DNA of 64,000 nt, from assembly GCA_019637975.1 (NCBI GenBank), contig JAHBUR010000006.1, positions 62,001 through 126,000 on the forward strand, written 5' to 3'. Each line of letters begins with the position of its first letter. Position 1 is the stretch's first letter. Shown here in pieces: positions 44,805 through 60,986 of this stretch. The stretch comes from Bacteroidota bacterium. GTDB taxonomy: Bacteria; Bacteroidota; Ignavibacteria; UBA10030; UBA6906. The notes under the pieces are model-generated. The model saw only the letters and a list, made by a program, of their open reading frames with translations. It was not told the origin of the DNA and ran no database searches. The translations under genes and the position numbers were made by a program.

Positions 44805-45713
44805 ATGATGACAACAACATGGTCAGGCATTTTCAGCGCCGTCACAACAAAATTCGATAAGGACGGACGGCTTGATTTTCCTGCAATGGAAAAACACTTC
44901 AACTTTCAAATCGAGTCGGGCGTGCACGGACTCATCGTCCTTGGCTCGCTTGGTGAGAATGTGACGTTGGCACCGATTGAAAAGCAGGATGTGTTGAAAG
45001 TAGCGCTGAGTGTAAGCGGCGGAAGAGTGCCGGTACTTTCCGGTGTTGCCGAAACATCCACCGCCATGGCCTGCAACTATATCAAACAAGCACAGGCGAA
45101 TGGCGCAAACGGTTTCATGGTGATGCCGGCGATGGTGTATCCGGCGGATCGACGGGAGACGCTTGAGTACTTTCGGAGTGTAGCCGCCGCAAGCGATGTG
45201 CCGATCATGCTGTACAATAATCCCGTTTCGTACAAAGTCGATCTCACGCCCGACATGTTCGCCGAACTTGCCGACGAACCGAAGTTTGTTGCCCTCAAAG
45301 AATCTTCGGATAATGTTCGGCGTATCACCGACATTGTCAACGCTGTGGGCAATCGTTATCAGATCTTCACCGGCGTGGATGATCTTGCGATGGAGAGTCT
45401 GATGTTAGGCGCGGTTGGTTGGGTGGCCGGACTCGTATGCGCATTCCCCAAAGAGACTGTCGTGTTGTACAAGTTGGTCAAAGCGGGAAGAATGGAAGAA
45501 GCTCTGAAACTCTATCGCTGGTTCATGCCGCTGCTGCATCTCGATGTTTCGACGAAGTTCGTGCAGAATATCAAGCTTGCGGAGGCGATGGCCGGCGTCG
45601 GTACTGAGTATGTTCGAGCACCGCGGATGCGACTTGAGGGTGATGAACGACGCCGTGTCGAACAGATTGTATCCACCGCGTTGAAGACGAGACCCGATCT
45701 ACCCAATATCTGA
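44805..45713 (+). CDS. DapA-family lyase, probable pyrroline-4-hydroxy-2-carboxylate deaminase
   Basis: The 302-residue protein belongs to the dihydrodipicolinate synthase/N-acetylneuraminate lyase superfamily (GLIVLGSLGENVTL, YNNPVSYKVDLTPDM, Schiff-base Lys in FVALKESSDN). By sequence alone it could be DapA. Its neighbours are a 2-oxoglutarate-semialdehyde-type dehydrogenase, a 4-hydroxyproline epimerase and a DadA-like oxidase, so it most likely removes ammonia from pyrroline-4-hydroxy-2-carboxylate in trans-4-hydroxy-L-proline breakdown. The GSLGEN loop differs from the GTTGE usual in true DapA, which supports this. ATG codons at 44805 and 44808 are both possible. Confidence 0.85.
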   Translation: MMTTTWSGIFSAVTTKFDKDGRLDFPAMEKHFNFQIESGVHGLIVLGSLGENVTLAPIEKQDVLKVALSVSGGRVPVLSGVAETSTAMACNYIKQAQANGANGFMVMPAMVYPADRRETLEYFRSVAAASDVPIMLYNNPVSYKVDLTPDMFAELADEPKFVALKESSDNVRRITDIVNAVGNRYQIFTGVDDLAMESLMLGAVGWVAGLVCAFPKETVVLYKLVKAGRMEEALKLYRWFMPLLHLDVSTKFVQNIKLAEAMAGVGTEYVRAPRMRLEGDERRRVEQIVSTALKTRPDLPNI

Positions 45714-45718
45714 AAGCA

Positions 45719-45785
45719 AACCACGAAGGCGCGAAGATGCGACGAGTTCTTCATCTATAAAGTTCTGCTTCGTGCCTTCGCGGTT
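45719..45785. repeat. CGAAG-type inverted repeat (gene-less copy)
   Basis: AACCACGAAGGCGCGAAG (45719-45736) and CTTCGTGCCTTCGCGGTT (45768-45785) match as inverted repeats in 16 of 18 positions around a 31-bp centre. The arms are the same motif as those that frame the GxxExxY gene at 48899-49362. The unit lies 6 bp after the deaminase stop codon. Confidence 0.65.
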
Positions 45786-45817
45786 CTCTTTATCTTTTTC
45801 AATCCCAAGAGACGTAC

Positions 45818-47365: not shown

Positions 47366-47818
47366 ATGGGACAGGTCTATTACAAACTGTTTTATCATGC
47401 CATTTGGCGAACGAAGTACAATCAGTCGGCCATCACTCCGGCGATTGAAGCCGTTCTGGTTCCATTCATGGAGAACAAAGCAAAGCGGTTCGGTTGCCAT
47501 TTGCATGGTATCGGCGGGACGGAAGACCACATTCACATTGCTATTGAAATTCCTCCCGCTGAATCGGTGAGTGATATTATCGGCAAACTCAAAGGCAGCA
47601 GTTCCTATTTTCTGAACAAGGAGTTGCAGATCACAAAGGATTTCTACTGGCAGGACGGGTTCGGCGTTCTTTCGTTTGCCGAGCGGGATTTGCCCAAGGT
47701 TCTTGATTATATACAGCGTCAAAAAGAACATCACGCGTCACACAAGCTGAACGCACCGATGGAGCGGGTGGATGGGGAGGAGGCTGATTCACGGGTCTGT
47801 GCACACAAATCGTCCTGA
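47366..47818 (+). CDS. IS200/RAYT-like tyrosine (HUH) transposase
   Basis: The 150-residue protein has the Y1-transposase pattern of IS200/IS605 TnpA: YKLFYHAIWRTKY, the HUH motif as HIHIAI, FYWQDGFGVLSF and the catalytic Tyr in VLDYIQRQKEHH. It would cut and join single-stranded DNA at hairpin ends. It sits alone (no TnpB), between the aldehyde dehydrogenase and epimerase genes, with hairpins on both sides, as RAYT elements do. All motifs are intact, so it may still be active. It interrupts the hydroxyproline operon. Confidence 0.88.
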   Translation: MGQVYYKLFYHAIWRTKYNQSAITPAIEAVLVPFMENKAKRFGCHLHGIGGTEDHIHIAIEIPPAESVSDIIGKLKGSSSYFLNKELQITKDFYWQDGFGVLSFAERDLPKVLDYIQRQKEHHASHKLNAPMERVDGEEADSRVCAHKSS

Positions 47819-48898: not shown

Positions 48899-49362
48899 AG
48901 AAAACCGCGAAGGCGCAAAGACACGAAGGTGTTTGAGATGAGTCTAGACTTGGATCGGGAAACTGAGCGGATAGCAACTACAATTGTAGATTCTGCCTTC
49001 AAGGTGCACAAAGCCCTTGGACCCGGTTTGCTGGAATCAGTTTACGAAATCTGCCTGTCTCATGAACTTCGACTGAGAGGCCTGAAGGTCGAAACTCAGC
49101 TCGCCGTCCCAATCGAGTACGAAGCAATGCAAATTGATGCTGCTCTTCGGTTGGATTTGCTTGTGAATAGTCTGGTAATAGTTGAACTCAAAGCCGTTGA
49201 AAAGATGATTCCTCTCTATGAAGCCCAGGTTTTGTCATATCTACGGTTGATGAAGAAACGCCTTGGTTTTATCATCAACTTCAATGTCCCTTTGATTAAG
49301 GATGGCATTAAACGCATAGTTCTCTCATGAAACTTCGCGACTTCGCGTCTTCGCGGTTTTCT
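48899..49362. mobile_element. Candidate GxxExxY element with 30-bp inverted repeats
   Basis: Left arm 48899-48928 and right arm 49333-49362 are inverted repeats matching in about 26 of 30 positions. Each is built of CGAAG-like units (AGAAAACCGCGAAG at the outer end). They enclose exactly one gene, the GxxExxY protein: its ATG is 9 bp after the left arm and its stop 2 bp before the right arm. Related arms without a gene lie at 45719, 52242 and 33476. Mobility is an inference. Confidence 0.55.
48938..49330 (+). CDS. GxxExxY protein (PD-(D/E)xK-like)
   Basis: The 130-residue protein matches the GxxExxY family, with the name motif as GPGLLESVY (Gly30, Glu33, Tyr36). Downstream, Asp73 in LRLDLLV and Glu83-Leu-Lys85 in VELKA form the D-ExK core of PD-(D/E)xK nucleases. 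The biological role of the family is not established. It separates the epimerase from the DadA-like gene in the hydroxyproline cluster, has no metabolic link to them and is framed by inverted repeats. The ATG at 48938 has GAAGG 8 nt upstream. Confidence 0.9.
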   Translation: MSLDLDRETERIATTIVDSAFKVHKALGPGLLESVYEICLSHELRLRGLKVETQLAVPIEYEAMQIDAALRLDLLVNSLVIVELKAVEKMIPLYEAQVLSYLRLMKKRLGFIINFNVPLIKDGIKRIVLS

Positions 49363-52241: not shown

Positions 52242-52320
52242 CAACACGAAGGCACGAAGTACAACGAAGTTGCACAAAGCAATGCTCTGTGGACTTCGAG
52301 GCCTTTGAGCCTTTGTGTTG
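52242..52320. repeat. CGAAG-type inverted repeat (gene-less copy)
   Basis: CAACACGAAGGCACGAAG (52242-52259) and CTTTGAGCCTTTGTGTTG (52303-52320) match as inverted repeats in 15 of 18 positions. The centre also contains CACGAAGTACAACGAAG-like units. The arm pattern is that of the GxxExxY-flanking repeats, but no gene is inside. It lies between phoH and the M24 peptidase gene. Confidence 0.6.
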
Positions 52321-54865: not shown

Positions 54866-55273
54866 ATGGCTCTTGCATTTCCAACAAGACCCGTCACAGT
54901 TGACTGTGTGGTTTTTGAGGACGACGCTGTTGTGCTGATTAAACGCGGGCACGAGCCGTTCAAGGGTTGTTATGCTCTGCCCGGCGGCTTTGTTGACGTG
55001 AACGAGACTGTCGAGGAAGCATGCAAACGGGAGATGTTGGAGGAGACCGGACTTGTCGTGCATAGTCTCAAAATGATCGGCGTGTACTCAGATCCGCAAC
55101 GGGATGAAAACCGGCATACAATTGCAGTTGCATTCCTTGCTGAAGCCGACCTCTCGACGTTGAAGGCGGGCGACGATGCGTCACACGTGGAGCAGGTAAG
55201 AGATTGGCAGAGTATCCCGCTTGCGTTCGATCATGCGAAGATCATAAGGGAAGCAGTCCGCCTCAAATCCTGA
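54866..55273 (+). CDS. NUDIX hydrolase
   Basis: The 135-residue protein has a complete Nudix box (GGFVDVNETVEEACKREML, then EETGL). VTVDCVVFEDDAVVLIKRGHEPFKG and YALPGG are typical of the ADP-ribose pyrophosphatase/MutT-like group. It hydrolyses a nucleoside diphosphate linked to another group; the substrate cannot be fixed from sequence. It is 30 bp upstream of truA on the same strand. Confidence 0.92.
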   Translation: MALAFPTRPVTVDCVVFEDDAVVLIKRGHEPFKGCYALPGGFVDVNETVEEACKREMLEETGLVVHSLKMIGVYSDPQRDENRHTIAVAFLAEADLSTLKAGDDASHVEQVRDWQSIPLAFDHAKIIREAVRLKS

Positions 55274-55303
55274 ATCTGAACCTCACATTCTGAATCATTC
55301 CAG

Positions 55304-56095
55304 ATGCCCCGTTTCAAACTCTATATCGAATACGAAGGAACCCGCTACAGCGGCTGGCAGGTGCAGAAGAATGCGCGCACGGTTCAGGGGGATCTGATCG
55401 GGGCGATGAAGACGGTGTTCAAGACAAGCGATTTCGAGTTTCACGGCGCCGGACGGACTGACGCCGGCGTGCATGCGCTGATGCAGGTTTCCCACCTCGA
55501 CGTGAAAACAATGCTCGCTCCGGAAATCATCCGGATGAAAGTGAATGATGAGCTTCCGGCGGACATCAATATCATTGAGGTAGAAAAGACCCGACCCGAT
55601 TTTCACGCACGACACGACGCCGTTGCACGCAGCTATCTCTACCAGATTTCCCGTCGCCGCACGGCGTTCGGCAAGCGGTACGTTTGGTGGATTAAAGACA
55701 AACTTGACGTCCGAAAGATGGAGCCAGCGTTGCATCTCTTTGCGGGCATGAAGAATATGCAATCATTCACTGATGACGATCCGGAGGAGAAGTCAACGAA
55801 GGTATTGATCGAGTCTGTTGAGATTGTGGAAGCAGGCGATCTGATTCTCCTGCGCATCGTCGGTTCCCATTTTGTGTGGAAGCTCGTTCGTCGCATTGTC
55901 GGAGTTGTGGCGGAAGTCGGACGGGGAAAGCTTGACGTTGAGGATGTTCGTCGATTTCTCACCATCAAATCCAACGAACCGGCAGCTTTCACATCTCCAC
56001 CATCAGGACTCTTTCTTGAACGCGTCTATTACAAAGGTGACAAGAAAGAAACAGGGCTGCAACCGACAATCCATCTGCCCGGTTTCAGGCGATAA
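55304..56095 (+). CDS. truA: tRNA pseudouridine synthase A
   Basis: The 263-residue protein has the TruA signature: YIEYEGTRYSGWQVQ at the N-terminus, the catalytic Asp in GAGRTDAGVHA near residue 52, and HARHDAVARSYLYQI. It makes pseudouridine at tRNA positions 38-40. Length and motifs are normal. Confidence 0.95.
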   Translation: MPRFKLYIEYEGTRYSGWQVQKNARTVQGDLIGAMKTVFKTSDFEFHGAGRTDAGVHALMQVSHLDVKTMLAPEIIRMKVNDELPADINIIEVEKTRPDFHARHDAVARSYLYQISRRRTAFGKRYVWWIKDKLDVRKMEPALHLFAGMKNMQSFTDDDPEEKSTKVLIESVEIVEAGDLILLRIVGSHFVWKLVRRIVGVVAEVGRGKLDVEDVRRFLTIKSNEPAAFTSPPSGLFLERVYYKGDKKETGLQPTIHLPGFRR

Positions 56096-59121: not shown

Positions 59122-59130
59122 GTTCAGAGT

Positions 59131-59242
59131 GTAGGGGGATGGAGCATTGGAGTATTGGAGTGTGGAGTATTCAAGTGTTTGTTGCATGACCATCACCCGG
59201 CACAAATCCAACACTCCATGACTCCATTAAACCATCAATCCC
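59131..59242. repeat. GGAGTATTGGAGT-type inverted repeat between the metH halves
   Basis: Tandem GGAGyATTGGAGT units (59140-59170) are mirrored by ACACTCCATGACTCC and the bases after it (59211-59242). The best local match is 13 of 15 positions. No gene lies inside. It occupies most of the 152 bp that separate the two methionine synthase genes. Confidence 0.55.
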
Positions 59243-59273
59243 TTGATCCGTTTATTCACGAATCCACAAAGTA

Positions 59274-60986
59274 ATGGCTGACTTATCTCAAAAGACGCTG
59301 AAAGTCGTCTACGATCCGCTCACCGAACTCATGGCGTACTACGCCGATAAAAAAGGCGTGAAGAAAGAGAAAGCCGCCCGCGCCGGAACGGTGGAAGAAC
59401 GCCTGAAGAACCGCATCATCGACGGCGACAAAGTGGAGATGCAAGCCGACCTCGATGAAGCCCTGAAAAAGTACTCCGCTCTCGACATCATCAATACTCT
59501 CCTGTTGGATGGAATGAAGGTTGTCGGAGAATTGTTCGGCAGCGGACAAATGCAGTTGCCGTTCGTCCTCCAATCTGCAGAAACAATGAAAACTGCAGTC
59601 GCCTATCTCGAGAAGTTCATGGATAAGGCGGACTCGACGAGCAAAGGGACTTTTGTCATCGCGACAGTGAAGGGAGATGTTCACGACATCGGCAAGAATC
59701 TCGTTGATATCATCCTGACCAACAACGGGTACAAGGTTGTCAATCTCGGCATCAAATGCGCGGTTGAGACAATGTTACATGCCGCTGAAGAACATAATGC
59801 TCACGCTCTCGGCATGAGCGGCCTGCTTGTGAAATCCACGCTCATCATGAAAGAGAACCTTGAAGTGATGAACGAGCGGAACGTGACGATTCCTGTTGTA
59901 CTCGGAGGCGCCGCCCTCACACGGCGCTACGTTGAGCAGGATATGCGCGCCATCTACAAAGGCAAAGTATTCTACGCCAACGACGCGTTTGACGGACTTC
60001 ATTTCATGGAACGAGTCACGTCGGGTACCATTGAGTATCCGCCGCAGGTTCGTACGGATGAGGATGAAGAAGAGAAACTCACCGGTACAGAAGCAAAAAT
60101 TGCGCTTGCACAAAGAGAAAATCAGTTGTATACGCAGGCGAGCAATGGAGGCGGGAGGACAGGCACTTCACGCGTCTCAAAAGACGTGTCCATTCCGAAG
60201 CCGCCGTTCTGGGGCGCGAAAGTCGTCGATGATGTTCCGCTCGATGACGTCTTTCAGTATGTTAACGAGATAGCGCTGATTCGAGGGCAATGGCAGGTTC
60301 GAAAAGGGAAGATGAAGGAAGATGAATACCGGAAGCTGTTGGAGCAGAACATCTATCCCGACTATGAAAACCTGAAATCCAAAATCAAATCGGAAAAACT
60401 CCTGCAGCCGAAGGTTGTGTACGGCTACTTTCCTTGCCAATCTGAAGGTGACGATCTCATCATCTATCACGATGACATGAACAGCGAGCGAATGCGGTTC
60501 ACGTTCCCCCGCCAATCGGATGACCGGTTTCTCTGTCTTTCTGACTATTTTGCCTCCGTCGAGTCGGGCCGGATGGATGTTGTTGCATTGCATCTTGTAA
60601 CCATGGGAAGAGTTGCTTCCGAGTATTCTGCGAAATTGTTTGCAGCAAACAATTACAAAGACTACCTTTACTTTCACGGCCTCAGCGTCGAATCTGCTGA
60701 GGCGCTTGCAGAGTTGTGGCACAAGAGGATTCGTGAGGAATTGGGAATCGCCGGAAGAGATGCACAAGAAATCAAGCGGTTGTTCTCGCAAGGATATCAG
60801 GGCTCGCGGTACAGCTTCGGGTATCCGGCGTGCCCGAATCTGGAAGATCAAACACAACTCTTCGAGTTGCTCGATGGCGAGCGCATCGGTGTTCGCCTGA
60901 CGGATGAATTTTCGCTTGAGCCGGAGCAAAGCACGAACGCGATAATCGTTCATCATCCCGAAGCGCGTTACTTTAACGTGAAGTAG
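59274..60986 (+). CDS. metH: Methionine synthase C-terminal half (cobalamin-binding and AdoMet activation domains)
   Basis: The 570-residue protein begins with the MetH helical cap (DGDKVEMQADLDEALKKY, LLDGMKVVGELFGSGQMQLP). The cobalamin domain follows with the Co-ligating His in GDVHDIGKN, then MGMSG-like GMSGLLVKS and VVLGGAALT. It ends with the AdoMet-dependent activation domain (VVYGYFPCQSEGDDL, RFTFPRQ, QGYQGSRYSFGYPACP). It supplies the B12 and reactivation functions missing from the upstream half. A linker of about 40 residues near residues 280-320 joins the B12 and activation domains. The start codon follows an AT-rich spacer. Confidence 0.92.
   Translation: MADLSQKTLKVVYDPLTELMAYYADKKGVKKEKAARAGTVEERLKNRIIDGDKVEMQADLDEALKKYSALDIINTLLLDGMKVVGELFGSGQMQLPFVLQSAETMKTAVAYLEKFMDKADSTSKGTFVIATVKGDVHDIGKNLVDIILTNNGYKVVNLGIKCAVETMLHAAEEHNAHALGMSGLLVKSTLIMKENLEVMNERNVTIPVVLGGAALTRRYVEQDMRAIYKGKVFYANDAFDGLHFMERVTSGTIEYPPQVRTDEDEEEKLTGTEAKIALAQRENQLYTQASNGGGRTGTSRVSKDVSIPKPPFWGAKVVDDVPLDDVFQYVNEIALIRGQWQVRKGKMKEDEYRKLLEQNIYPDYENLKSKIKSEKLLQPKVVYGYFPCQSEGDDLIIYHDDMNSERMRFTFPRQSDDRFLCLSDYFASVESGRMDVVALHLVTMGRVASEYSAKLFAANNYKDYLYFHGLSVESAEALAELWHKRIREELGIAGRDAQEIKRLFSQGYQGSRYSFGYPACPNLEDQTQLFELLDGERIGVRLTDEFSLEPEQSTNAIIVHHPEARYFNVK

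Follow-up and report, generated by a model that had tools for sequence, protein, structure and literature searches.

Results

The window analysed here is a stretch of 64,000 nucleotides of a Bacteroidota genome (G000), and within it a GxxExxY gene encoding a protein of 130 amino acids (48938–49330, plus strand) lies between the genes for a 4-hydroxyproline epimerase and a DadA-like FAD oxidoreductase. A repeat search placed one arm of an inverted repeat on either side of the gene. The left arm, AGAAAACCGCGAAGGCGCAAAGACACGAAG (48899–48928, plus strand), ends 9 nt 5′ of the ATG at 48938, and the right arm, CTTCGCGACTTCGCGTCTTCGCGGTTTTCT (49333–49362, minus strand), begins 2 nt past the TGA (49328–49330). 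The core of the left arm, CCGCGAAGGCGCAAAGACACGAAG (48905–48928, plus strand), reads as CCGCGAAG-G-CGCAAAG-A-CACGAAG, that is, three CRCNRAK units, and three such units also make up the core of the right arm (49333–49356, minus strand). The arms match at 26 of 30 positions, including the outer AGAAAA/TTTTCT, and the cores at 20 of 24; a repeat finder stretches the pair to 46 nt (78%). The inverted-repeat score of the gene is 21.0, versus 14.5 for the 99th percentile of 387 control window pairs from the same locus. These re-measured coordinates agree throughout with the first-pass annotation, which had described 30-bp arms enclosing only the GxxExxY gene; the gene indeed sits exactly between the two arrays. 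The start codon is ATG 48938, which is kept in a congener (G001); the GTG proposed by the ORF caller (48929) is not kept there.

Two other features of the window deserve mention. An IS200/IS605-like Y1 transposase gene (47366–47818) lies just upstream of the epimerase gene, outside the arms, and another gene is found there in G001. About 160 bp at 59130–59290 hold TGGAGTATTGGAGTG-type repeats of period 8 with an inverted partner, and the same place in G001 is without them.

GxxExxY proteins are common and, to our knowledge, have no known role. The protein of the window matches the profiles TIGR04256 (GxxExxY; 1.5e-40, 138.2 bits against a cut-off of 35) and PF13366 (PDDEXK_3; 2.1e-39, 134.9 bits against a cut-off of 22). 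These family models do not mention flanking arrays. The nuclease core that had been read from the translation, D73 followed by E83-x-K85 (numbered from the ATG), corresponds to D64, E74 and K76 of an alignment of 29 sequences (A1) and is kept there: D64, K76, E24 and Q88 (of a QxxxY motif) are invariant and E74 nearly so. An AlphaFold model (mean pLDDT 96) has a restriction-endonuclease-like fold. Its nearest structural match is the Cas4 protein SSO0001 (Z 9.9 over 99 residues, 3.3 Å), followed by many matches at Z of about 6–8 that are common to this fold; the match to a Cas4 profile is weak, and a sequence search returned no relative of solved structure. Judged by its motifs and predicted fold, the GxxExxY protein is a compact Cas4-like PD-(D/E)XK nuclease. 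It shares with Cas4 and RecB-type QxxxY nucleases the fold and the D, E-x-K and QxxxY motifs, but the matched Cas4 chains have 202–215 residues as against 130, and cas genes were not seen adjoining the gene. Intact GxxExxY genes have a median dN/dS of 0.06, indicating strong purifying selection. Elsewhere, many copies carry truncations or frameshifts, and presence across genomes is very patchy.

Framing by arms is general in the family. All four GxxExxY genes of G000 lie between inverted arms, but the arms are of a different class for each copy: CGCGAAG units for the window gene, and CACAGAG/CACGGAG, CACAGAT and CACCAAG/CTCAAAG units for the other three. The first view, of CGAAG-type arms as a fixed end sequence of the element, is thus not supported, since the class varies even between copies of one genome. 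Across the phylum set, 90 of 113 genes have an inverted repeat between their 300-nt flanks that exceeds the 95th percentile of same-locus controls, where about 6 are expected. An array of two CRCNRAK units was found within 150 nt upstream of 125, downstream of 120 and on both sides of 102 of 171 GxxExxY genes; the background is 12 of 559 windows, and 1 of 33 four-helix IVP genes. About a quarter of the genes lack an array by the strict test, and some arms are decayed or unusual. Loci of named genomes were collected with a single-protein query, as alignment A1 was too diverse; 25 of 36 exceed the 95% control, and this set extends the framing to further phyla, among them Planctomycetota, Acidobacteriota, Pseudomonadota and Cloacimonadota.

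Several loci depart from the simple layout. Direct-repeat matches between the flanks of GxxExxY genes are strong and mostly resemble several arrays per side. GxxExxY genes stand side by side at G147:C4:68683-69764 and G249:C1:3199652-3200531, possibly as tandem duplications, and at L088 (1547–1815) CRCNRAK arms are in tandem with a period of 49 bp. Locus L019 (1500–2300, contig C3 of G000) has three single arms, two of them within a longer repeated unit in which a GTCGGGGCTTTGCCCCGAC palindrome is also present.

The arms have a simple grammar: the unit is the 7-bp CRCNRAK, and an arm contains 2–4 units (four being the upper limit of the search pattern) separated by spacers of 1–4 nt. When the two arms of gene-bearing elements are compared, mismatches affect 41% of the positions in spacers and 40% of those at position 4 of the unit, compared with 2–3% at positions 1, 3, 6 and 7, 14% at position 2 and 9% at position 5; positions 2 and 5 give the fairer contrast, because the search pattern dictates positions 1, 3, 6 and 7 on one of the two arms. 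In gene-less inverted pairs the corresponding values are 61% for spacers and 17% for positions 2 and 5 together. The same holds among 34 dispersed arrays of genome G045, where the units are almost invariant (0.06 bit per unit column) and the spacers near-random (1.58 bit per spacer column), with some longer matches between copies.

This pattern bears on the idea that the arms are selected in the transcript, as terminators or as a stem like that of 23S intervening sequences. The arms are able to pair, and intergenic gene-less pairs resemble hairpins. However, the spacers, which would have to pair in a stem, mismatch at the 41–61% just given, G-U is no more frequent than A-C in the sense strand among arm-to-arm transitions (234 versus 237, p=0.93), and the window has no Rfam match. 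We find this explanation scarcely credible, and a conserved base-paired transcript stem (an RNA or IVS-type element) was rejected as a candidate on the strand-asymmetry and spacer tests. Because the units are kept, the spacers are unpaired and a G-U bias is absent, the arms look like inverted arrays of a protein-recognition unit, and the comparison of sequences disfavours RNA stems. That the gene usually lies between such arrays, whose unit also occurs by itself in the same genomes, suggests that the GxxExxY protein may be the reader of the CRCNRAK unit.

Between genomes, arm distance falls as protein identity rises (Mantel r=-0.33, 0 of 1,000 permutations), and among copies of the same genome the arm classes differ as much as those of random copies. 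Arm class thus tracks the protein, which shows that gene and arms travel together; binding is not implied, as joint inheritance suffices. In a tree of 179 proteins, in which few columns leave many forks open, the four G000 copies are far apart and sequences from other phyla are mixed among those of Bacteroidota. Separate arrival is thus the most likely origin of the GxxExxY copies of one genome. Among 98 same-genome pairs (side-by-side copies such as G147:C4 excluded) none was close, the maximum identity being 0.70. The gene thus does not proliferate in the manner of an insertion sequence, which is present in many near-identical copies. GxxExxY genes were found in none of 50,697 phage records and in 7 of 72,556 plasmid records. 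We also asked whether copies that share their arms exclude one another from a genome, and the data do not support this (p about 0.2).

Most arrays carry no gene. In the window, a gene-less inverted pair whose arm class is that of the window gene lies at 45712–45793 (array matches at 45722–45736, plus strand, and 45768–45782, minus strand), between a dihydrodipicolinate-synthase-like and an aldehyde-dehydrogenase-like gene (names read off the translations). A second pair, of CACGAAG/CACAAAG units, is intergenic at 52243–52320 (array matches at 52245–52259, plus strand, and 52285–52317, minus strand). When 130 strict arms were sorted, 58 fell in close inverted pairs, 41 were single, 14 framed a GxxExxY gene and 17 were otherwise arranged, mostly in clusters. 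Gene-less inverted pairs therefore outnumber gene-bearing ones, and not every arm belongs to a gene-carrying unit. Their loop has a median of 32 bp, and their intergenic placement was read in the window and in examples from G000. As their spacers are near-saturated, most gene-less pairs are either old or never were simple copies.

The arrays are nevertheless not distributed independently of the genes. Of the gene-bearing genomes, 27 of 35 have strict arrays, as do 4 of 25 gene-free ones (Fisher p=4e-6, a nominal value because relatives are not independent data points; p-values throughout come from small samples of related genomes). Gene-bearing genomes account for 326 of the 332 strict arrays, and array abundance goes with presence of the gene (Spearman 0.70 across 60 genomes); the array-rich genomes G043 and G045 weigh heavily in these counts. 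Gene-less arrays are also nearer to the arms of the resident gene than to those of other genomes, a modest effect (p about 0.024, residents being partly sampled).

These results can be set against the possibility that some other machinery spreads the arrays as mobile or mutable repeats, with the GxxExxY gene riding along. The excess of gene-less arrays would fit, and so would other genes found in arrays. Four-helix IVP genes have inverted arms of another tandem-repeat grammar, and in G023 CACAAAG arrays exactly enclose a gene for a methylase with an Mrr-type C-terminal domain (L219, 6289–7992). But the concentration of strict arrays in gene-bearing genomes and the way in which arm class follows the protein speak against it, and the boxing of the methylase is limited to one genus; we regard this explanation as highly improbable. 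Among relatives, methylase homologues have an array alongside in G028 only, and the methylase/Mrr gene was rejected as a second general cargo, its boxing being confined to that genus.

The IVP genes (PF05635, four-helix bundle; loci L231–L260, from relatives) show their own form of framing: 17 of 32 exceed the 95% control with inverted arms of tandem repeats of about 7 nt, such as TTAGGGN, TCAGCAA and TAGAATT, a grammar distinct from CRCNRAK. Like the GxxExxY gene, the IVP of 23S rRNA intervening sequences is a small ORF with tandem-repeat inverted arms, chromosomal and patchy; unlike it, IVP belongs to another protein family, with repeats of the form [TCA]AGNNNN and next to no CRCNRAK arrays (the 1 of 33 given above).

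We then compared orthologous sites. At the epimerase–dadA junction, G001 has the insert and the arms in common with G000, and its gene is frameshifted; the gene was thus not met in this place without arms. Seven other relatives, namely G002 (of the same genus), G003, G006, G008, G009, G018 and G020, have the junction without the insert, and in these empty junctions the CRCNRAK arrays are absent altogether. At the junction matching 55245–55304 of the window, G001 has a decayed GxxExxY remnant and a right arm, and G000 has none. Occupied and empty sites, the framing of most genes and the tracking of the protein by arm class together support the view that the gene evolves as a unit with its arms and that this unit is gained between genes. 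To this extent the inserting unit proposed in the first-pass annotation stands, but most arms are without a gene and close copies are lacking. The intergenic flanks were too diverged for a target-site duplication or a base-exact insertion boundary to be read, and inverted ends are present. For the G001 copy L188, neither G000 nor G002 offered a homologous site that could be used for comparison of the flanks. At two junctions that hold CRCNRAK arrays in G000, the spacers of G002 (L091, 841–978; L228, 3249–3342) have AGGTT-type arrays instead, as if different elements enter the same intergenic sites.

The orthologous sites also bear on homing, in which the nuclease would cut a close gene-less pair and repair from a gene-bearing copy would fill the loop, the gene then parting the two arrays and making the site resistant. 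Homing endonuclease elements have a nuclease gene that splits its own target, and the position of the GxxExxY gene exactly between the arrays fits that layout; gene-less pairs, moreover, consist of the same arrays around a short loop. Against homing, the comparison of orthologous sites turned up none at which one relative had a gene-less pair and another the gene, and the empty sites of relatives are wholly without these arrays. We therefore hold this route to be distinctly improbable.

Discussion

The above results describe a chromosomal gene of a predicted nuclease family that is framed by arrays of a 7-bp unit and accompanied by dispersed gene-less arrays. Our confidence is a little better than even that these form a REPIN-RAYT-like system in which the enzyme is a Cas4-like PD-(D/E)XK nuclease. 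We infer its steps, namely binding, cutting, movement and the route of copying, as follows. The element would consist of two inverted arrays of 2–4 CRCNRAK units. Between them would lie the gene in the longer form (about 0.5 kb) and a loop of a few tens of bp in the miniature form (about 80–100 bp). The GxxExxY protein would, most likely as a multimer, bind the units of its own subfamily, and the nuclease would cut at or near the inverted pair. Repair or copying after the cut may then lead to the gain of gene-bearing and gene-less elements at intergenic sites. The model for this scheme is the RAYT transposase, which is held to move REPINs.

Alternatively, the protein may bind the units in a chromosomal job, such as regulation, repair or a role against invaders, with the arms as autoregulatory sites; the unit would then spread by horizontal transfer and recombination rather than by its own nuclease. 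Such a job would agree with units that are constrained though spacers are saturated, with a gene that is under strong purifying selection and lacks close same-genome copies, and with its near-absence from plasmids and absence from phage records. Autoregulation, however, does not need arms on both sides of a gene, often a few bp past the stop codon, and the very patchy presence, the many broken copies and the different arm class of each copy in a genome are not what it would lead one to expect. We consider this alternative unlikely.

The REPIN-RAYT-like reading draws on several likenesses. In REPIN-RAYT systems, too, the repeat lies on either side of a small protein gene, inverted doublets with a short spacer are scattered through intergenic regions, the repeats occur mostly in genomes that hold the gene, close gene copies are missing and the gene is rare on plasmids (PMC3116915, PMC8049555). 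There are also differences. The RAYT enzyme is of the HUH/Y1 type, whereas the framed GxxExxY enzyme is an unrelated PD-(D/E)XK protein; REP is one palindrome, whereas GxxExxY arms are arrays of 7-bp units with free spacers and several classes per genome. RAYTs are described as vertically inherited, in contrast to the spread of the GxxExxY gene over phyla. REPIN copies are near-identical; the gene-less CRCNRAK pairs have near-saturated spacers, although the units themselves are near-identical in G045. With its unrelated enzyme and its different repeat design, the GxxExxY system is not a member of the REPIN-RAYT group.

In the literature, GxxExxY has been mentioned in passing beside a reverse transcriptase. 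Outside subscription journals and preprints, we found no earlier description of a GxxExxY gene with its arrays; a search of the literature for literal array sequences likewise gave no related description.

We tentatively propose, as a possibility that falls short of an even chance, a new class of miniature elements, in which a Cas4-like PD-(D/E)XK nuclease present in several phyla would recognise, and move or maintain, subfamily-specific arrays of 7-bp units; the four-helix IVP genes are perhaps a parallel second system with another unit. The role of GxxExxY proteins becomes testable, because the flanks of each gene reveal a cis-acting, subfamily-specific unit, and many short intergenic repeats of environmental genomes that lacked an explanation are tied to one gene family. 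If it is true that the nuclease moves the arrays, an arrangement like that of RAYTs would have been reached by an unrelated family.
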